Below are positions 1-18,079 of a stretch of 64,000 bases of DNA, piece by piece; positions within the stretch are counted from its first letter, which is position 1; the number at the start of each line of letters is the position of its first letter. The DNA is from Pseudochrobactrum asaccharolyticum. GTDB taxonomy: Bacteria; Pseudomonadota; Alphaproteobacteria; Rhizobiales; Rhizobiaceae. A model generated the notes under the pieces. The model did no database searches. It saw only the letters and a program-made list of their open reading frames with translations, and was not told the DNA's origin. Where the stretch lies: the NCBI RefSeq assembly GCF_003314995.1, contig NZ_QNRH01000001.1:683436-747435 (forward strand), read 5' to 3'. Position numbers and translations under genes: made by a program.

Positions 1-495
1 CTCATAAAGCATCTGCGGGGTGATGCGCGGAAAGCGCTCCGGATGCGTGCCGAAGGTCGAGAATTTGAAGCCCGCCGCACCGGCTTCAACCAGACCGTCA
101 ATATGCTTGGTGCCGTCTGCCGGATGCGCCGTGGCATAAAGCGCGAAATCCACGCGCGCTTCCTTGCCAGCGGATTCCACCTTGCGGGTGAAGCGCTCCG
201 GCGTGGCGATCAGGTCGCCGTCGTCATAAGGCATATCGACAATCGTCGTAACGCCGCCTGCAGCGGCTGAGCGGGTCGACCAGATAAACTCTTCCTGATT
301 TTTCTGGCTGCGGCTATGTACCTGACCGTCAATGGCACCCGGCAACACCAGATAATCCGTACCGCCATGGCTTTCACCTGCAGGGGCAGTACCTTGACCC
401 GTCTGGACAACGCGGCCGTCGCTGACCAATACCCAGCCATTCTCAATGACCTGATCGGGCAGAACCACTTTACCTTTGAAGACTTTATCCTGCAT
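1..495 (-). CDS. Allantoinase/dihydropyrimidinase-type amidohydrolase, N-terminal 165 residues (cut by window edge)
   Basis: The reading frame runs off the left edge, so only the N-terminal part is present. It starts at ATG 495 with a GAGGAAATACCGCA stretch upstream that can act as ribosome binding site. The protein opens with the small beta-sandwich typical of the urease-related amidohydrolases and then reads PGAIDGQVHSRSQ (about residues 52-64) and AAAGGVTTIVDMPY, which place it near allantoinases, hydantoinases and dihydroorotases. These enzymes open cyclic amides using two metal ions. The usual metal motif is DxHxH; here it is DGQVH, so the first histidine is glutamine (Q58) and only H60 remains. 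The substrate cannot be told. It lies 66 bp downstream of the lyase-fold gene on the same strand and may be co-transcribed with it. The family is clear, the activity is not. Confidence 0.8.
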   Translation of the reverse strand, partial: MQDKVFKGKVVLPDQVIENGWVLVSDGRVVQTGQGTAPAGESHGGTDYLVLPGAIDGQVHSRSQKNQEEFIWSTRSAAAGGVTTIVDMPYDDGDLIATPERFTRKVESAGKEARVDFALYATAHPADGTKHIDGLVEAGAAGFKFSTFGTHPERFPRITPQMLYE

Positions 496-561: not shown

Positions 562-2244
562 TTACTTGGTGGCTGGCTGTGTGAAAGCGTGCAGCACCTG
601 CACACCGGCTGCAAAATCCGGCGTGTAAATGCGATCCTGATCGACGAATTTGACCTGTGCACGATAGGTTTCCAGCAGCTTTGCGGAGGTTTTGCCGAGC
701 GCTACCTTGCCACGCAGATCAACCGCCTGTGCTGAATGCAGCAGCTGAATGGATGACAGGCTGTACATATTGCCGAGAATGCGCTGCAGGTTGTTCACTG
801 CCAGCGGGGCATTATTGCCGGTATCTTCAATATTGCCTGCCATGGCGAAAGTATCGAGCGATACAGGCATGGCCAGCTGGCGGTTTTCGGCATAGAGCGC
901 AACAAGCGGCTTCTGCATGGCACCAAAGGCATGGCCTTCATTCTCAGGGCCGGCAAGGAAGCGCGGCAGCTTGGTGAAATCCGGATTTTCCGTGCGGATG
1001 GTCTGCATCACAATATTCTGCGCCAGACGGGTGAGGGCGACATTCAGATTTTCCACACGGGTGGCAACCGGCAGCATATCGAAATTGGCGGTCGGATAAA
1101 TCGCGCCATGCACATCGCCTGCGACCTGATATTTGTGCAGCTGGTTATGACTGTCAGCCGCTTTTTCCGCAGGCTTGTCGGAAGCCACTGCAGCCGGATT
1201 GTCATCGCTGGCATTGATATGGATATGCAAAGCTTCTTCAAGCGCGGCCTGTGCTTCCCATGCATTGCCGAGCGCATAGGCCATTGTGCGGTAGGAGAGC
1301 GGATCCTGCAAAGCGCGGCCATCAGATTGCTGCCAGAGATAGGAGCCATCCAGCGCTGCACGAATATCAGTTGCCGCCTTCACCATACCCGGAAACGGGC
1401 GCAGTTCGGTTGTCTCAGCCAGGAAAGGCGCGACATTGCCGTTATAACCTTCAAGCGATAGGGCGAAAACGGCTGTGGCTGCTTCCAGATAATGGCGGGT
1501 TTCTTCTGCAAGCAAAACGGCCTGACCGGCAGTCAGTGCATTGGTACTGAGAATGGAGAGGAAGTCTTTGCCGACCGGTTCAATCGGCTTTAATCCGGCC
1601 AGTTTCAGAGCTTCTGCCGCAGGCATACGCTTGCCCTGATAATCCACGAACCATTCGCCGATCATCGCCAGTCCGATATGGGAGGCGAGCGTAATATCAG
1701 CCTCACCGACAGAGCCTTTTTCCGGCACTACCGGAGTAATGTCGTGATTGAGAAAATCGCGATAGGCTTCCACCACGCTCAGCTGTGTGCCAGTTTCACC
1801 GCCGAGCATTTCATTGAGACGGATCAGCATACCGGCGCGAACAGCCTGTGCAGGCATAGCCTCGCCAATACCGCCACCATGGGCATGAAGCGAACTGGTG
1901 TTGAAGCGGCGGGAAAGCGCCAGTAATTCCTCATCCAGCGTGCGGCGGCCTTTAACCTCTTTGAAAACCGGTTTGTCCTTGTTCCAGCCCACGCCGACAT
2001 TCAGCCCGTAAACGGCGGTGCCTTGCAAAGCTGCTTCCATCACCAGATCAAAACTATGACTGACCTTTTGTGCCGCTTCCGGAGCGATTTCGACTTTTTC
2101 GTTTTTGTTCGCTGCGAACTCTGCCACCTGCGCAGTGGTGAGCTGAGTGCCGTTAAGCTGCAAAGCTTGCGCATAGGCGGCAGAAGACGACAGGAGGGCA
2201 AGTGTCAGAATGCTGAGTTTGGACAGGTGATTGAGCTTTTTCAT
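562..2244 (-). CDS. Exported HAL/PAL-fold (aromatic amino acid lyase family) protein lacking the MIO tripeptide
   Basis: This 560-residue protein has the length and landmarks of the histidine/phenylalanine ammonia-lyase family: YGLNVGVG around residue 79, LHAHGGGIGE, VRAGMLIRLNEML, GSVG at 177-180, QDPLSYR and SDDNP. Known members cyclise an Ala-Ser-Gly triplet straight after GSVG into the MIO cofactor. Here the residues after GSVG are EAD (181-183), followed by a segment about one residue shorter than usual, so MIO cannot form in the known way. The Thr of YGxNTG is also Val. The first 25 residues form a clear Sec signal peptide (Lys-rich start, hydrophobic core, AYA-QA cleavage site), whereas classical lyases are cytoplasmic. 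The amidohydrolase follows on the same strand and an exported M20 hydrolase is divergent. Fold assignment is firm; the reaction is unknown and may not be ammonia elimination. Confidence 0.85.
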   Translation of the reverse strand: MKKLNHLSKLSILTLALLSSSAAYAQALQLNGTQLTTAQVAEFAANKNEKVEIAPEAAQKVSHSFDLVMEAALQGTAVYGLNVGVGWNKDKPVFKEVKGRRTLDEELLALSRRFNTSSLHAHGGGIGEAMPAQAVRAGMLIRLNEMLGGETGTQLSVVEAYRDFLNHDITPVVPEKGSVGEADITLASHIGLAMIGEWFVDYQGKRMPAAEALKLAGLKPIEPVGKDFLSILSTNALTAGQAVLLAEETRHYLEAATAVFALSLEGYNGNVAPFLAETTELRPFPGMVKAATDIRAALDGSYLWQQSDGRALQDPLSYRTMAYALGNAWEAQAALEEALHIHINASDDNPAAVASDKPAEKAADSHNQLHKYQVAGDVHGAIYPTANFDMLPVATRVENLNVALTRLAQNIVMQTIRTENPDFTKLPRFLAGPENEGHAFGAMQKPLVALYAENRQLAMPVSLDTFAMAGNIEDTGNNAPLAVNNLQRILGNMYSLSSIQLLHSAQAVDLRGKVALGKTSAKLLETYRAQVKFVDQDRIYTPDFAAGVQVLHAFTQPATK

Positions 2245-2654: not shown

Positions 2655-4250
2655 ATGTCTTGTACTCTCTCGTCTAAAATTGCACTCAGCCTTATGATGT
2701 CGGCCTCTTTGCTCAGTCAGGCCGCAGCACAAAAATCAGAACAGGATGTCAAAGCTTATAAGCAGCAAGTAACAGCGGGTGTGGAGAGCCGCGCCAAGCT
2801 TGCGCAGGAGATGACGGATTCAATTTTCAGCTTTGGTGAGCTGGCTTTTCAGGAAGTGGAAACCTCAAAATACATCACGGATATTCTTGAGAAGAACGGC
2901 TTTACCATTGAGCGCGGCGTTGCCGGTCTGCCGACCGGCTGGGTAGCACGCTGGGGCTCGGGCAAGCCGGTGATTGCACTGGGCAGCGATATTGACGGTC
3001 TGCCAAAAACCTCTCAGATGCCCGGTGTTGCCTATCGTAAGCCGATGATTGAGGGCGCACCCGGTCACGGGGAAGGGCATAACTCCGGTCAGGCTGTGAA
3101 TGTGGTTGCAGCCTTGGCGATGAAAGACCTGATGGAGAAGGAAAAACTCTCCGGTACGCTGGTGCTCTGGCCGGGTGTGGCAGAGGAGTTGTTGGGCGGC
3201 AAAGCCTATATGGTGCGTGACGGTGTGTTCAAGGATGCGGATGTGGTGATGTTCACCCATGTCGGCAATAATCTGCAAACCTCATGGGGTGCAGCCAATG
3301 GCACCGGTATGGTTTCGGTCAAATATACATTTGCCGGTGAGTCTGCCCATTCTGCCGGTGCGCCGTGGCGTGGCCGCAGTGCGCTTGATGGCGTAGAGCT
3401 GATGAATGTGGGCTGGAATATGCGGCGCGAACATCTGCGCCCTGAACAGCGCTCGCATTATGTGATCCCTGACGGCGGTGACCAGCCGAATGTGGTGCCG
3501 TCTGTTGCCAGTGTCTGGTATTTTATCCGTGAGACGGATTTTGAAAACATTGCCAAGAACTTTGCGATAGCCAATACCATGTCAGAAGCAGCGGCAAAAA
3601 TGTCAGACACAACAGTGGAACGGCAGATTATCGGTACAGCTGCACCGCGCCATTTTAATAAGCCTATGGCGGAGGCAGCCTATGCCAATATTCTCGAAGT
3701 TGGCTTGCCGGAATGGACAGAGGATGAAAACAGCTTTGCCAAAGCTGTGCAGAAGGCTGTGAAAGGCAAGGAAGACGGGCTGGCGACAGAACTGAAGAAA
3801 CTGGCACCACCACCGGAAAAACTGGAAAGCGGCGGCTCTGATGATATCGGCGATGTGTCATGGATTGTACCGACAATTACGCTAAATTATCCGTCAAATA
3901 TTCCGAACCTTCCGGGGCATCACTGGTCAAATGCGATGTCGATGGCCACACCAATTGCTCATAAAGGCGTTGTCGCCGGCTCAAAAGTGATTGCCATGAC
4001 CGGTGTTGATCTTCTAACCAAGCCGGAACTGGTATCTGCGGCACAGGATTATTTCACCAATGTGCAGCAGAAGGATCAGAAATATCTGCCGATGCTTGGT
4101 GCGGATGACAAGCCGCAAATTCAGCTGAATACGGAGATTATGCAGCAGTTCCGTCCTGAAATGCAGAAGCTCTATTATGATGCAGAGAAATACCCGACTT
4201 ATCTCGATCAGTTGGGTGTGAAGTTTCCTGAGCTATCAGCTCCGCAATAG
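2655..4250 (+). CDS. Exported M20-family amidohydrolase (AbgB-like) with Cys-to-Glu change in the metal motif
   Basis: The 531-residue product begins with a Sec signal peptide (cleavage near SQAAA-Q, residue 25). It has the M20D layout of p-aminobenzoyl-glutamate or aminoacylase-type hydrolases: GSDIDGLP, GHGEGHN at 137-143, PGVAEELLGGK with the paired glutamates at 177-178, a dimerisation lid with ESAHSAGAPW, and a C-terminal GHHWSNA. In well-known M20D enzymes the metal cysteine sits in GHGCGHN; here that position is Glu140. Glutamate can still bind metal, so the enzyme may be active with altered chemistry. It should act in the periplasm on an N-acyl or dipeptide-like amide. The gene is divergent from the lyase-fold gene and is followed by palindromes and a terminator. 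Substrate unknown. Confidence 0.88.
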   Translation: MSCTLSSKIALSLMMSASLLSQAAAQKSEQDVKAYKQQVTAGVESRAKLAQEMTDSIFSFGELAFQEVETSKYITDILEKNGFTIERGVAGLPTGWVARWGSGKPVIALGSDIDGLPKTSQMPGVAYRKPMIEGAPGHGEGHNSGQAVNVVAALAMKDLMEKEKLSGTLVLWPGVAEELLGGKAYMVRDGVFKDADVVMFTHVGNNLQTSWGAANGTGMVSVKYTFAGESAHSAGAPWRGRSALDGVELMNVGWNMRREHLRPEQRSHYVIPDGGDQPNVVPSVASVWYFIRETDFENIAKNFAIANTMSEAAAKMSDTTVERQIIGTAAPRHFNKPMAEAAYANILEVGLPEWTEDENSFAKAVQKAVKGKEDGLATELKKLAPPPEKLESGGSDDIGDVSWIVPTITLNYPSNIPNLPGHHWSNAMSMATPIAHKGVVAGSKVIAMTGVDLLTKPELVSAAQDYFTNVQQKDQKYLPMLGADDKPQIQLNTEIMQQFRPEMQKLYYDAEKYPTYLDQLGVKFPELSAPQ

Positions 4251-10173: not shown

Positions 10174-11592
10174 TTAAACAGCCTGATCCTGAATGCGTCC
10201 GAGCGCTTCTTCGCGACCCAGAACCACCAGAACATCAAAAACGCCCGGCGATGTGGCGCGGCCGGTGAGGGCTGCACGCAGCGGCTGAGCAATCTTGCCG
10301 AGCTTCAGGCCGGTTGATTCTGCATGGGCGCGCACAACAGCGTCGAGCGCTTCGGCAGTCCATTCCGCAGCTTCAAGCTGAGGCAGTACAGCCTTGAGAA
10401 TAGCGCAGCCTTCCTCATTGAGCAGGCTGGCAGCTTTTTCATCCAGCGGCAGCGGGCGGGATACGAACAGGAATTTCGCACCATCAGCCAGTTCTACCAG
10501 CGTTTTTGCACGGTCTTTCAGGCCCGGCATTGCTGCAACAAGTTGCGCACGACGTTCATCATTGAGCAGAGCCTGCAATTCCGCACCGCCTTCGATATAA
10601 GGCAGAACGTCAATCAGCGCCTGAGTGAGCGTTTCTGGATCGCTGGCACGGATATGATGACCATTAATGGCTTCCAGTTTCTGGAAGTCAAAACGTGATG
10701 CGCCTTTATTAATATCTTTGGTATCAAACCATTCAATCATCTGCTCGATCGTCATGATTTCATCATCACCATGGCTCCAGCCAAGACGAACCAGATAGTT
10801 GCACAGGGCTTCCGGCAGATAGCCCATCGCACGATAGGCTTCTACGCCCAATGCGCCGTGACGCTTGGAAAGCTTGGCACCATCCGCACCATGGATCAGC
10901 GGGATATGGGACATCTTAGGCACATCCCAGCCCATTGCCTGATAGATGATGGTCTGGCGGGCAGCATTGGTCAGGTGGTCGTCGCCACGGATAATATGGG
11001 TAACGCCCATATCATGATCGTCGACCACAACTGCATGCATATAGGTTGGTGCGCCGTCCGAACGCAGAATGATGAAATCATCCAGATCTTTATTCGGGAA
11101 GCGGACTTCGCCCTGCACATCATCCAGTACAACGGTTTCGCCTGTCTGAGGGGCTTTAATGCGGATAACCGGCTTCACACCTTCCGGTGCTTCCGACGGA
11201 TCGCGGTCACGCCAACGACCGTCATAGCGTGGCGGGCGGCCTTCAGCGCGCGCCAGTTCGCGCATCGCATCCAGTTCTTCCGGTGAGGCGTAGCAATAAT
11301 AAGCTTTACCGGCTTTCACCAGTTCTTCAGCAACTTCGCGGTGGCGCGGTGCACGTTCCCACTGGGAGATCGCATCGCCGTCCCATGTCAGGCCTAGCCA
11401 TGTCAGGCCTTCAAGAATAGCTGCAGTTGCAGCCTCTGTTGAACGCTCACGGTCGGTATCCTCAATACGCAGCAGCATCTTGCCGCCGGTATGTTTGGAA
11501 TAAAGCCAGTTAAACAACGCGGTACGTGCGCCGCCGATATGGAGATATCCTGTCGGGGAAGGCGCAAAGCGGGTAATAACGGGTGATGACAT
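10174..11592 (-). CDS. gltX: Glutamyl-tRNA synthetase
   Basis: The 472-residue class I synthetase has the HIGH motif as [16 protein letters not shown] near the N-terminus and KLSKRHGA as the KMSKS loop near residue 240. It charges tRNA-Glu, and in many alphaproteobacteria also tRNA-Gln for later amidation. The length fits the usual 470-480 residues. The gene starts at ATG 11592, has a GGAGCGACCG stretch upstream, and is divergent from comEC. Confidence 0.97.
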
Positions 11593-11849
11593 CGGTCGCT
11601 CCGTATCTGCGGGAAAATTACAATTTCATGCTCTTATATCCGAATTTATGGAGATAAGAATGTAATTTGCCGCCTCTCGATTTCTTATGCTGTTCATGTA
11701 GCATAGGCAGCACAGCGTGCAAGACTTGATGCGCGGATCAGGGAACGGAAGCGGTGTTTAACGTCGTATAATGCAAGATTCCTGCGTGAAAAGTGCTGTT
11801 TTGGACGTTTAATTGTGCAGCTGTCAGGTGCGGGGGCAATTCAGACAGC

Positions 11850-14393
11850 ATGACCGGCAGCAATGACAGGGCGGTTGGAAGTCATCAGGATAAGAGTGAG
11901 TCCCGTGATGTGAGTGACGGGGCGCAGACAAGTGCTGTCAGCAATACTTATTCACGTGGACTGACAGTTGAGCAAACCATGCTCGGTTTTGCAGAACCGG
12001 ATGCAGGCGAGCATAGTGCAGCTGAAATTGAATGTGCTGCCAGAGCGAAGAATTTTAAAAAATACGCGAAATTTTTGAACCGCAACGCTCCGGTTTGGCA
12101 GGAATACTGGCAGTATTTCAAAGACAATCTGATTGATGCTTTGCTCTATGAATATGAGCGCGGAGCGGTGTTTCTGCTGACTGCTATTATGGCAGGTGTG
12201 GGGGCTGTTTATTATTTCGGTTTGGTTCGGGAGCCTTATTGGATCGAGCTGGCTATTCCGGCCTTTCTGTTTGGCTAGTTATTGCTTTTACTGCGTGACA
12301 CGCTGATACGCCGTGTCAGTCTGATATTGATCCTTAGCTTTATTACGGGCATGGCCGCGGCTAAGTGGGAAACACAGCGCTATGCGACGACGATGCTGGG
12401 CAGTGCGGTTTCCACCGTGATGACAGCACGGATTGTGTCATTGGAGCAGGAGGCCGAGGAGGATGGCAAGGCTGGTCGCTGGCGCATTGTTGCCGATGTT
12501 TTAGCAACGGAAAAACCGCATTTGCGCTATGCGCCGCAGCGGTTGCGTCTGTCTGCCCGCGATTTACCGGCATTGAGCGAAACAGGAACTGTGCTGAAAG
12601 GTGCTGTGCGGTTGCGCGCGCATGGCGGACCGGTGCGCTCGGGTCAGTATGATTTCGCGTTTCATGGTTTCTTTCGCGGGCATGGTGGTAACGGGTTTTA
12701 TCTTGGCACACCTGAAATTATAGACAGTGATATTGCCAGCGAGCCTCAGGACAAAAGCTGGCAGGCCAGTGTGGAGGCCATCATCGGTCAGCTGCGGGCC
12801 TTGATAGGCGGGCGCATTATGCAGGCATTAAACGGTGAGGAAGGGGCGGTGGCTGCCGCGCTGATTTCCGGTCAGCGTGCAGGGATCAGTGAAGCCACTA
12901 ATGAAGCGCTGCGTATTGCAGGACTGGCGCATATTCTCTCAATATCCGGCCTGCATCTGGCTTTGGCGGCAGGAATTGTCATGGTGAGTGTGCGTGGGCT
13001 GGCAGGGCTGTTTCCGTCCTTGTCACTCTATTATCCAGTCAAGAAAATTGCTGCGCTGATTTCGTTGTTTTCTTCCGGTTTTTATCTGGCTCTATCGGGC
13101 GCGGATGTGGCGGCACAGCGTAGTTTTATTATGTTGGCGGTAATGCTTTGTGCGGTGATTATGGATCGTAAAGCGCTGACATTGCGCAATCTGGCGATTG
13201 CGGCTTTGTTCAGTATTCTTGTAACGCCGCATGAAATTCTGGGACCCAGTTTTCAGATGTCCTATTCTGCCACCGGAGCGCTCATCGCCGGATTTGCATG
13301 GGTGAAGCTGCGTAAAAGGCAAAATCCGGAGAAAACGGAGCGGCAAACCGGATTGCTTCATACAGTCCGGCGCTGGCTCATTGGCATTATCGCAACGTCA
13401 CTGTTGGCAGGTACGGCCAGTGGTCTTTATGCGGCCTTTCATTTCAACAACATGGCACCGCTCGGCATGCTGGGAAATGCATTGGCTCTGCCGGTGATCT
13501 CAGTGCTGATTATGCCTTTTGCCGTGATTGCACTTTTACTGATGCCACTTAGCCTTGAATGGTTGCCCTTACAGGTGATGGGTAAAGGCATCGAGCTGGT
13601 GAAGTGGATTGCCCATTTTGTGGCTGGCCTGTCGCCTGATCTGATACCCGGATTACTGCCTGCGCCGGTATTGCTGCTTTGGACTGCGGCTATGCTGTCT
13701 GCCATGATCCTGACCAGCCATTTGCGATTGATCTCTCTGATGTTTGTAGGTGCAGGCTTTGTATCTCTCGTAGCAACGGATTTGCCGGATATTAACGTTT
13801 CAGAAGATGCCAGGCTGGTTGCTGTTCGCCAGAACAATATTCTCTACGTCAACCGCCCGAGACCTGCAGCTTTTACAACAGATAACTGGCGCAAAGCCTA
13901 TAAAATTACAGAAGTAAGAGTACCTGACAAAAAGGGGGCAGAAAGCTCGGAAGGTTTTATCTGTATGGACGGGTTATGCAGCTTCGATTTAGCGAATGGT
14001 CAGGTGCTGGCCTATGCTGAAAACCGTGATGCTGCGCAGATCGCCTGTAATATCGGTGATGTTATTATCTTCGCCTTTGCAGGCAATATGCACTGTTCAA
14101 AACGCCAGGATAGGGATGATACGTCACCGCTTATCATCACTCGTCAGCAACTGGCTCTAAAAGGTGTTGCTGAAATTTATCTGCCTTTAAATAGAGAAAT
14201 CAATCAAGAGCGGACTATTATTCAGGCTGCAAAAGCAGCTACTCAAATTGAGAATTCTGTGGCTGGTGATAAGTCAAAAAACAATGCGAATAGCGCAGGA
14301 GAGGTAAAGGTTGTTTTCGCGGTGGGAGAGCCGCAACGGCCGTGGCATTTATATCGTCTCTGGTCTCGCGCAGCGCGTAATCTGGAAGATTAA
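11850..14393 (+). pseudogene. comEC: comEC DNA-uptake channel gene interrupted by in-frame TAG
   Basis: One continuous frame from about 11850 to 14393 encodes a ComEC/Rec2-like membrane protein, but it is broken by an amber codon at 12276-12278 (...TTT CTG TTT GGC TAG TTA TTG CTT...). Before it lie about 142 residues: a polar N-terminus, then a first membrane helix. After it the same frame runs 704 codons with the Competence domain (GLAHILSISGLHLALAAG, LALSGADVAAQRSF) and a C-terminal soluble part. ComEC carries single-stranded DNA through the inner membrane. TAG is one change from TTG (Leu) or CAG. Options are a degraded gene, readthrough, restart at TTG 12282 or nearby, or a sequencing error. 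The rest of the frame is intact, so the break may be recent. The start at 11850 is not certain. Confidence 0.85.
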
Positions 14394-15444: not shown

Positions 15445-16665
15445 TTAACGGATTAACAGGACCGGGCAGCGGTCACCGCGCTTTGCCGCTTTCGCAAACG
15501 GCTCTCTGATCAGCAAGCCGTCAGCACGGGTGATAACGGTCAGCATGGAGGAATCCTGCACCGGCAGAGGGGTCGCCAGCAATTCACCATTGCTGTCATA
15601 AGCCAGCGTAGCGCGGGCATAATCGCGACGATTGCCGTTTTCGGCCATGTCCTGAGCCAGAACTGCACTGGCAATACGTGTCATTGGTGTTTTGCCTGCC
15701 AGACGGGCAACCAGAGGTGCCAGAAACACATAAGAACAGACAAGGCTGGAAACAGGATTGCCCGGAAGCCCCAGAACCAGCAATGGTTTTTTGCCGTCAC
15801 GGGCGAGGGTACCAAACATCAGTGGCTTACCCGGACGCATGGCGATTTTGTAAAAGCCTAAATCCACACCGCAATTGATGAGCGCTTTATGTACAAGATC
15901 ATGATCCCCAACCGAAGCGCCACCAAGCGTTATCAGAATATCAGCATCGGAAGCCGCAACATTGCGAATGGATTGCGCGATCTTGACCAGATCGTCAGGC
16001 ACAATGCCTAAATCTTCTGCTACGCCGCCATTGCAGCGCACGATTTCAGCAACGCCGTAACTGTTGGAGCTGACAATCTGATCTGCCGCCGGAATCGTAC
16101 CGGCAGGGACAAGCTCGTTACCGGTGGCAAGAATAGCAGTTCGCGGTTGTGTATAGACTTGTAACTTCGCATGGCCAGAAGCGGCAGCTAATGACAGCGA
16201 TGCAGGATCAAGAACATGACCAGTCTGCAATAAGCACTCGCCGTCACGGAAATCTAAGCCACTCAGGCGGATATGGCGACCTTTCTCCACATCCTCCAGC
16301 AGGGTGACCTGATCATCTTCCTGTTTGGTATTCTCCTGAATAACCACCGTATCAGCACCGGCAGGCAAAGGGGCGCCGGTGAAAATACGTACAGCTTCAC
16401 CGGATTTCAGTGTGCCGTCAAAGCCTTTACCGGCTGCGGATTCACCAATCACTTTAAGCGTAACCGGCAATTGTTCTGCATCGGTAAAACGAATGGCATA
16501 GCCATCCATAGCCGAGGCATCAAATGGCGGCTGATTGAAAGAGGCAAAGATCGAAGTGGCAAGAACGCGGTTGCCCGCCTGATGCAATGCAACATTCTCA
16601 TGACCGGAAGGCATTTTATCTGCCAGTAACAGACGCAAAGCTTCATCAACGGGTAATAAGGCCAT
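15445..16665 (-). CDS. moeA: Molybdopterin molybdenumtransferase MoeA
   Basis: The start ATG at 16665 follows GGGAGAG. The 406-residue enzyme inserts molybdate into adenylylated molybdopterin, the last step of molybdenum-cofactor synthesis in the cytoplasm. It shows the MoeA pattern: PPFDASAMDGYA, GEAVRIFTGAPLP, the MoCF-binding core with LITLGGASVGDHD, and GLPGNPVSSLV. A repeat element separates it from moaC upstream on the same strand. Its product would serve MsrP, also in this window. Confidence 0.96.
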   Translation of the reverse strand: MALLPVDEALRLLLADKMPSGHENVALHQAGNRVLATSIFASFNQPPFDASAMDGYAIRFTDAEQLPVTLKVIGESAAGKGFDGTLKSGEAVRIFTGAPLPAGADTVVIQENTKQEDDQVTLLEDVEKGRHIRLSGLDFRDGECLLQTGHVLDPASLSLAAASGHAKLQVYTQPRTAILATGNELVPAGTIPAADQIVSSNSYGVAEIVRCNGGVAEDLGIVPDDLVKIAQSIRNVAASDADILITLGGASVGDHDLVHKALINCGVDLGFYKIAMRPGKPLMFGTLARDGKKPLLVLGLPGNPVSSLVCSYVFLAPLVARLAGKTPMTRIASAVLAQDMAENGNRRDYARATLAYDSNGELLATPLPVQDSSMLTVITRADGLLIREPFAKAAKRGDRCPVLLIR

Positions 16666-16702
16666 GAATTCTCTCCCGTAATATGAGCGGAAAGGATGTT
16701 GT

Positions 16703-16805
16703 AGCATTTTCAGCAAAAGTGGGAACCGGTTTTGCGTCGGATAATGCGTAAAAACAAACAATTACAGCGGTTCTAACAATTCAGTCTTAATTGGAACCGC
16801 TGTAA
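16703..16805. repeat. 103-bp two-hairpin intergenic repeat, copy 1 (overlaps moaC 3' end)
   Basis: The unit opens with a GCAAAA/TTTTGC hairpin enclosed by GCATT/AATGC, followed by TTACAGCGGTTC pairing with GGAACCGCTGTAA. A nearly identical copy of the same length lies at 39853-39955 and a diverged copy at 60918-61020. The right arm forms the last codons and the TAA stop (16787-16789) of moaC. Size and palindromic form recall the Bru-RS repeats of Brucella, a comparison made from memory. Confidence 0.8.
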
Positions 16806-17278
16806 GAGCGCTGCCAGTCACCGGACTTGCCGCCGGTTTTGCTGTCAACGGCAATATTGCTGATGACCATACCTTTATCAACGGCTTTTGCCATATCGTA
16901 AATGGTCAGACAGGTAACGGAAACGGCAGTCAGCGCTTCCATTTCCACACCGGTTTTGCCGGTGAGCTTAACTGTTGCGCTAACACGCAAGCCGGGCAAA
17001 GCTTCATCCGGCTTAATCTCAACTGTAACTTTGCTGAGCATCAGCGGATGGCAGAGCGGTATCAGATCAGAAGTTTTCTTAGCGGCCATAATACCGGCAA
17101 GGCGGGCGGTGCCGATAACATCGCCCTTGGCTGCGTTGCCGGAAATGATCAGCTCAAGTGTCTGCGGCTGCATGATGACACAGCCCGATGCGGTCGCAAT
17201 GCGCACAGTGTCGGTCTTGTCACCAACATCCACCATATTGGCGGCGCCGCTTTCATCGAGATGTGTCAGCTTGCTCAT
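16787..17278 (-). CDS. moaC: Cyclic pyranopterin monophosphate synthase MoaC
   Basis: The 163-residue protein has the MoaC pattern: [30 protein letters not shown] and [23 protein letters not shown]. With MoaA it turns GTP into cyclic pyranopterin monophosphate, the first molybdenum-cofactor intermediate. It starts three bases after the trpC stop codon, so it is translated from the trpDC-moaC transcript. Its last five codons and stop lie inside the 103-bp repeat, so the C-terminal tail YSGSN is repeat-encoded. Confidence 0.97.
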
Positions 17279-17281
17279 AGT

Positions 17282-18079
17282 TTATTCTTTGCCGGTCAGA
17301 AGTTTGCGGGTCGCACCTGCCACATCCTGCTGGCGCATCAGGCTTTCACCAATCAGGAAGGTGGAGATGCCGGATTTCTGCAAACGCAGGCAATCATCAT
17401 GCGTGAAGATACCACTTTCGCCAACCAGCAGACGATCATCCGGCACCATGGTTGCCAGACGCTCAGAAACAGCGAGATCAACTTCGAAAGTACGCAGGTT
17501 GCGGTTGTTGATGCCGAGCAGGCGCGAAGACAATTTCAGTGCCCGCTCCATTTCCACTTCATCATGCACCTCGATCAGTGCATCCATGCCGAGCGAAAAG
17601 GCTGTGTCTTCCAGCTCCTTTGCCATCGCATCATCAACACTTGCCATGATGATGAGAATGCAATCCGCACCCCAATGACGCGCTTCATAGACCTGATATG
17701 GATCAAACAGAAAGTCTTTGCGCAGCGCTGGCAAGGCGCAGGCAGCACGTGCTTGTTTCAGAAAGTCCGGTGCGCCCTGAAAGCTTGGCGTATCTGTCAG
17801 AACCGAAAGACAGGCCGCACCACCATCTTCATAGGCTTTTGCCAAAGCAGGCGGATCAAAATCCGGACGGATCAGACCTTTGGACGGGCTGGCTTTTTTG
17901 ATTTCTGCAATCAGACCGAAAGAGCCGGTAGCCTGCTTTGCTTCCAGAGCTTTAAGGAAGCCACGGGCAGGCGGCTGATCGGCAGCAGCCTTTTTAACAT
18001 CTGCCAGTGGCAAACGCGCTTTGGCTTCTGCAATTTCAACAACCTTATAGGCTTCGATCTTTTTGAGAATATCAGTCAT
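17282..18079 (-). CDS. trpC: Indole-3-glycerol phosphate synthase
   Basis: The start ATG at 18079 gives 265 residues beginning [12 protein letters not shown]. The TIM-barrel enzyme makes indole-3-glycerol phosphate in tryptophan synthesis. Landmarks are [50 protein letters not shown] and [11 protein letters not shown]. It begins one base after the trpD stop codon, which indicates translational coupling, and is followed three bases later by moaC. Confidence 0.97.

Follow-up and report, generated by a model that had tools for sequence, protein, structure and literature searches.

The window (the whole 64,000-nucleotide stretch of Pseudochrobactrum asaccharolyticum DNA analyzed here, on contig C1 of a 4.65 Mb genome) begins inside an operon, most of which lies off its left edge; the remainder of this ert operon was read from the genome. 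In minus-strand order the genes are ertA, ertD, ertE, thiohydantoin desulfurase and thiourocanate hydratase. The genes and features that concern us are as follows:

1 to 495, minus strand: 5' part of ertD, hydantoin-5-propionate amidohydrolase (whole gene at 16570-17931 of locus L004)
562 to 2244, minus strand: ertA, predicted exported ergothionase, a lyase of the HAL fold without MIO (ORF of 560 aa, ATG start)
2170 to 2244, minus strand: probable Sec-type signal peptide, residues 1-25 of ErtA, MKKLNHLSKLSILTLALLSSSAAYA, cut between AYA and QA by eye
2655 to 4250, plus strand: M20-type amidohydrolase with a leader-like N-terminus, divergent from ertA (TIGR01891, 171.3 bits, cut-off 153.75)
10626 to 12443 of locus L004, opposite strand to the operon: regulator of 605 aa, next to the ert operon, whose single chain contains two LysR-type HTH domains

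Beyond the regulator, on the minus strand, lie an MHS-family MFS transporter (266.8 bits with the ProP model and 353.7 with TcuC, each below the model's own cut-off) and a BASS-family transporter. Frame 1 of the plus strand carries five stops across 562 to 2244. Among the best 79 of 185 relatives, the closest named ones to ErtA are from Pseudochrobactrum (97-98% identity). The cluster holding the M20-type gene has members, among the loci compared, only in L017-L021, L024 and the window, and in L017-L021 it adjoins ertA. L018, from a record titled Bacillus subtilis SK6B4, carries a Pseudochrobactrum-type operon at 94-99% protein identity and is probably mislabelled or contaminated; L022 (titled Acetomicrobium) and L053 (titled Planktophila) look like similar cases.

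The four downstream enzymes occur together and all score above the NCBIfam equivalog cut-offs of the Ert pathway (score/cut-off: NF058530, 1016/930; NF058529, 626/440; NF058538, 742/600, with 742.4 bits for the whole ErtD protein; NF058540, 588/520). With thiourocanate hydratase, thiohydantoin desulfurase, ErtD and ErtE thus accounted for, the first step, from ergothioneine to thiourocanate, is left for ErtA. In most of the ert regions fetched from this bacterial family, a distant ergothionase occupies the place held here by the putatively exported ErtA.

ErtA matches PF00221 (Lyase_aromatic) with 412.7 bits. A sequence-only reading had noted that the Ala-Ser-Gly from which MIO forms in this family is replaced by EAD with one residue missing, and that YGxNTG carries Val in place of Thr; the alignment bears out both observations, since GSVG (177-180) is followed directly by EAD at 181-183, HutH reads GSVG-ASG-D and is one residue longer, and Y79-G-L-N-V-G (79-84) stands at the YGxNTG position. 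In a search of PDB sequences the best match was Treponema denticola ergothionase (6s7j; 296.9 bits, E 2.7e-87), the best HAL following at 144.7 bits (E 3.8e-41). An AF2 model (pLDDT 90.2, pTM 0.90, built from 35 sequences) gave the same order in Foldseek (6s7j 2.4e-37, TM 0.82 by query length; HAL 8.5e-30) and in 3D alignment (6s7j Z 44.3, rmsd 1.9 over 491 residues; best HAL Z 41.5). ErtA therefore has the HAL fold, with a solved ergothionase as its nearest relative by both sequence and predicted structure, and ergothionase is described in PMC13405746 as an enzyme without MIO.

The positions compared between the two kinds of enzyme are:

826 to 828, minus strand: E473 (index 411 of the 6s7j chain), Glu in 90 of 91 rows of the first alignment
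910 to 912, minus strand: K445 (aligned with index 383 of the 6s7j chain), Lys in 77 of 91 rows and in 26 of 26 rows of the second alignment
1696 to 1704, minus strand: EAD (E181-A182-D183), by alignment at the MIO-forming Ala-Ser-Gly site of HAL, one residue shorter
1975 to 1983, minus strand: N88-K89-D90 block after YGxxxGVG, present in T. denticola ergothionase and a gap in both HutH

The first alignment held 91 rows (the query, 87 relatives, T. denticola ergothionase and two HutH controls). It reveals no true A/T-S-G triplet for the query, and Ser at the MIO position is absent from the query and all 87 relatives and occurs only in the two HutH controls. N88 and K89 are present in 88 of the 91 rows (Q/R in L011), and K445 is shared with ergothionase and missing from HutH; E473 does not discriminate, because HutH has Glu there too. 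ErtA thus carries the T. denticola residues that HutH lacks (NKD and K445). In the second alignment (26 rows, made up of 24 leaderless-type ergothionases plus the query and T. denticola), the residues identical throughout are Y79, K89, D90, H122, D183, N235, R319, K445 and E473, while N88 and E181 are common to the query and T. denticola only, the leaderless types having Met or Leu at 88. Taken together, ErtA shares with the T. denticola enzyme (6s7j, 6s7q) the fold, the absence of the MIO triplet, the Y, NKD, K and E positions and 36% identity over 491 residues; it differs in its Sec-type leader, the solved chain being leaderless, and in the surrounding ert operon. With HutH it shares the fold and the general active-site frame but not the MIO triplet, the NKD block or K445, and the same genome encodes a separate HutH with GSVGASGD.

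The N-terminus of ErtA looks like a textbook Sec signal peptide, as the sequence-only reading had held, with a basic n-region, a hydrophobic core and an AxA cut site (cleavage after A25 was judged by eye), and by our crude rule it is conserved in relatives. In the AF2 model it forms a low-confidence helix at 3-19, and the 3D match to 6s7j sets in at residue 26 of the model and residue 2 of the chain, which makes the leader look like an extension of an otherwise complete enzyme. Leader calls were made by a crude homemade rule, on relatives from a contig scan of which the best 79 of 185 were kept, so that the sample leans to query-like proteins. The rule was passed by 72 of these 79 loci (66 from ATG; 67 at a stricter score of 2.0); the seven misses comprise L042 and L044, where starting at an upstream ATG restores a leader, L082, which is leader-like without a basic residue, and four leaderless-looking proteins (three Enterococcus and one Vibrio), so that by inspection 75 of the 79 are leader-like. 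With the same start-picking, the rule was passed by none of 157 controls (0/47 ErtB, 0/49 ErtD, 0/45 ErtE, 0/16 MHS transporters). It was, however, passed by 11 of 47 thiohydantoin desulfurases, at threshold and on a Gly-rich stretch where N-termini were inspected, and in a cluster-based control by 5 of 15 in the desulfurase cluster and 1 of 27 in the ABC-ATPase cluster. The rule is thus not free of false positives, and single leader calls are uncertain, but the overall contrast is large. The contrast first drawn with the known, cytoplasmic lyases is right, since the T. denticola ergothionase and HutH chains compared are leaderless, but exported members make up a large clade and are not peculiar to this genome.

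Two types of ergothionase are found in the bacterial family to which the window belongs. ErtD exceeds its cut-off in 36 of 247 genomes of the family, but only seven of the 247 carry a query-like lyase (E <= 1e-60), and the distant ergothionase is present in 22 of the 35 ert regions fetched from it (22 of the 32 from other genera, without L188-L190, which are Pseudochrobactrum-like, repeat L017, L019 and L021 and were not recounted). The distant type has the motif GS(M/I)GC(A/G)D, with Cys at 181, and 27-31% identity to T. denticola ergothionase. From the chosen start, 20 of the 22 distant lyases fail the leader rule; L166 (1.81) and L167 (1.76) pass marginally, in the presumed first part of the fold, and these passes are probably false, and L159 and L180 pass only from upstream starts that we judged improbable.

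The exported proteins form a clade in both the quick tree (43 rows, SH-aLRT 99; the quick trees carry long-branch warnings) and the careful one (30 rows, 97/91), L011, L024 and near-copies having been left out of the trees. Polaromonas L015, which has a leader, falls outside this clade. The simplest reading is that, within the clade, Enterococcus and Vibrio L094 lost the leader. The leader marks an old and widespread clade. The subclade of the query is also well defined (support 100 in the quick tree; 13 rows, 100/100, in the careful one), and ert genes adjoin 10 of its 13 rows (the exceptions being L016, L022 and L029). Quick trees of ErtB and ErtD place the exported Paracoccus/Agrobacterium group with the leaderless group and Pseudochrobactrum apart, whereas the ErtA trees differ; from this conflict it appears that the first enzyme has been exchanged at least once within a conserved pathway.

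Wider sampling gave a relative at E <= 1e-60 in 55 of 385 genomes of the class (a match count only) and at E <= 1e-80 in 8 of 398 genomes of the phylum, our own included. Nine loci read from the other genomes of the phylum sample have AAD (seven) or AGD (two) at the site, and the leader rule fires in them solely from internal Met codons; no row was obtained for L126, and no count of exported ErtA was drawn from this sample. L127-L133 form a further group of lyases without ASG; they read AAD there, and early Met codons gave no leader. In L013 (S. meliloti pSymA), L009 and L010 the exported relative carries QAD where MIO would form and Ala in place of K445, and other exported relatives occur in cyanobacteria (L080, L083, L087, L089 and L095), with no ert or reductase partner by the clusters used. 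Genes were called by longest ORF, which is rough, especially in GC-rich loci, and cluster counts are approximate.

If ErtA acts outside the inner membrane, its product has to enter the cell, and the transporters found beside the two types of enzyme bear on this point. Among named and plasmid loci, an exported ErtA is found in 16 ert regions, each of which has either an MHS-MFS transporter (14) or a TRAP DctP protein (two, L023 and L028), while the same probes found neither importer in any of 23 regions with a leaderless ErtA. Such a pairing would be expected were thiourocanate formed outside by an exported ErtA and then imported by a carboxylate carrier. The exported group excludes L029, where only a distant hydratase (47%) lies nearby and ErtC-E were not found; the leaderless group excludes L174, L184 and L185 (other lyases) and L164, L186 and L187, where no ErtA is adjacent (the L164 genome has one elsewhere, and L187 ends at a contig end). 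Within the leaderless group, L094 has a glycine-betaine-type ABC importer (OpuAC, Pfam) and L179 another, whose binding protein is 51% identical to that of L094; in the other 21 of 23 regions the probes used found no importer, L167 and L176 being short.

The pairing is only suggestive, because several of the 16 regions are near relatives and there are just two independent phylogenetic contrasts between transporter and leader (sign test p 0.5). Three further observations weaken it. MHS transporters include the betaine carrier ProP, so the carrier of this cluster could import ergothioneine itself. L094 has an apparent TRAP system about 1.8 kb downstream of ErtA, which the TRAP binding-protein probe did not match and which was set aside by eye as another cluster, L094 being counted as having no acid importer. 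Finally, L171, L173, L177 and L181 carry ErtB-E, all with a TRAP binding-protein match, and ErtA is absent from the region, their genomes giving only 27-29% matches to a leaderless ergothionase. These operons are perhaps thiourocanate scavengers, or their TRAP systems may carry something else; UbiD/UbiX-like genes lie (by eye) near some of them.

A second setting of the exported lyase involves a reductase. In Shewanella, Ferrimonas, enterobacteria and Sutterellaceae the lyase is accompanied by a flavoprotein of the fumarate/urocanate-reductase fold, often along with a small c-type cytochrome. Of 84 loci examined, 46 encode such a flavoprotein together with the exported lyase (L035 and L058, without a called reductase, were counted as "other"), and a cluster of small c-type cytochromes (PF14537) has members in 34 loci. 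By our rule 41 of 45 flavoproteins have a leader from some early Met, and both of the arginines that were examined are conserved in every one of the 45 full-length reductase rows. A position at which, according to PMC7921117, fumarate reductase has His and UrdA has Tyr is Gly in 42 of these rows and Tyr in three. The likeness to periplasmic respiration by UrdA/FccA lies in the fold of the neighbor; the difference lies in the Gly at the discriminating site of 42 of 45 proteins and in the window itself, which has no such reductase. The pairing of an exported lyase with a reductase suggests respiration of the lyase product. Lyases with Asp at 445 (L074, L081 and L086) are paired with a UrdA-type (Tyr/Asp) reductase in three of three cases and those with Lys445 with the Gly type in 42 of 42; the former three loci could possibly respire hercynine and urocanate and the others ergothioneine and thiourocanate, but the three-of-three pairing might go back to just one change in the tree and is a lead, not proof.

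We consider it likely that ErtA is an ergothionase exported to the periplasm and that the thiourocanate it forms is then imported and degraded in the cytosol; here the substrate of ErtA, its export in vivo and the identity of the transported molecule are what we infer. In the periplasm ErtA would convert ergothioneine to trimethylamine and thiourocanate by 1,2-elimination without MIO. Trimethylamine is a far better leaving group than ammonia, and elimination without the cofactor is possible for that reason. The MHS-family MFS transporter encoded in this cluster would probably carry the thiourocanate across the inner membrane, and in the cytosol thiourocanate hydratase, thiohydantoin desulfurase, ErtD and ErtE would degrade it in the direction of glutamate. 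The suggestion of MIO-free chemistry in the periplasm, made from the sequence before any search, has thus gained ground: the nearest solved relative is an ergothionase without MIO, the residues in common with it are conserved, and the gene heads an ert operon. Protection of the cell's own ergothioneine as the purpose of export is not supported, as no match to EgtD (TIGR03438) was found in the same genome; as all 14 control genomes also failed to pass this cut-off, the search is of unproven sensitivity.

Among other explanations, an exported MIO-free trimethylamine lyase acting on a related betaine (ergothioneine sulfonate, S-methyl-ergothioneine or hercynine) is the one we regard as unlikely rather than remote. 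A YeiH-family gene adjoins the relative in Polaromonas, the locus in Paracoccus saliphilus also encodes a putative sulfate exporter at a distance of about 8 kb, the reference list of PMC13405746 includes a published sulfonate pathway for Agrobacterium radiobacter, and the replacement of K445 by Ala, Asp or Val in some subgroups suggests switches of substrate. The query itself keeps K445, however, and its hydratase and desulfurase pass the thiourocanate and thiohydantoin models while falling below the cut-offs of the S-methyl versions (738 vs 880; 287 vs 450). Much less probable still is a non-enzymatic periplasmic protein that binds histidine betaines on a lyase fold, which had been one of the two roles first proposed. 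Loss of the MIO triplet, the leader and the want of any recognized separate binding protein in the cluster would all fit it, but conservation of the active-site positions runs through the exported clade and extends to a working ergothionase, and ErtA heads a catabolic operon, otherwise without a first enzyme, whose four downstream enzymes act on the expected product; we rejected it because of that conserved active site and operon position. That ErtA is an ordinary MIO-dependent histidine or aromatic ammonia-lyase, as membership in PF00221 and the annotation of its relatives (hutH or aromatic amino acid ammonia-lyase) might imply, we consider hardly credible given that there is no A/T-S-G and one residue is missing at the site, that the HutH model gives 252.7 bits against a cut-off of 539.15, that PAL, TAL and mutase models also match below their cut-offs, and that the genome has its separate HutH with an intact motif.

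We therefore return to an exported ergothionase, which would most likely combine known chemistry and a known pathway with a compartment for which we found no report: in the ergothionase and urocanate reductase literature searched, which covered few subscription papers, neither a periplasmic or respiratory ergothionase nor an exported lyase-reductase pair came to light, and the terms signal peptide, periplasm and secreted are all absent from the text of PMC13405746. The same paper concludes from a BLAST search that ergothionase is confined to few genera. Several public records name exported-type relatives hutH or aromatic amino acid ammonia-lyase (hutH in some records from S. meliloti), and among the best 79 of 185 relatives the genera include gut bacteria (Parasutterella, Turicimonas, Sutterella, Citrobacter and Hafnia), so that counts of few genera may miss exported ergothionases. 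According to work by others cited in PMC13405746, cross-fed thiourocanate sustains both growth and ATP synthesis in gut Bacteroides, so its use as an anaerobic energy substrate is not itself new.

More tentatively, and with rather less confidence than in the assignment of ErtA itself, we suggest a deep and widespread clade of exported, cofactor-free trimethylamine lyases in two periplasmic settings, one tied to ert import and one respiratory, in which the specificities of lyase and reductase switch together. What becomes of ergothioneine, a dietary antioxidant, in soil and in the gut depends on microbes. If export is real, the molecule transported would be thiourocanate, and trimethylamine would be freed outside the cell and open to cross-feeding. 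If the wider proposal holds as well, the lyases of ert operons would cut ergothioneine outside the inner membrane, with only thiourocanate imported, and those paired with a reductase would make ergothioneine a respiratory electron acceptor.
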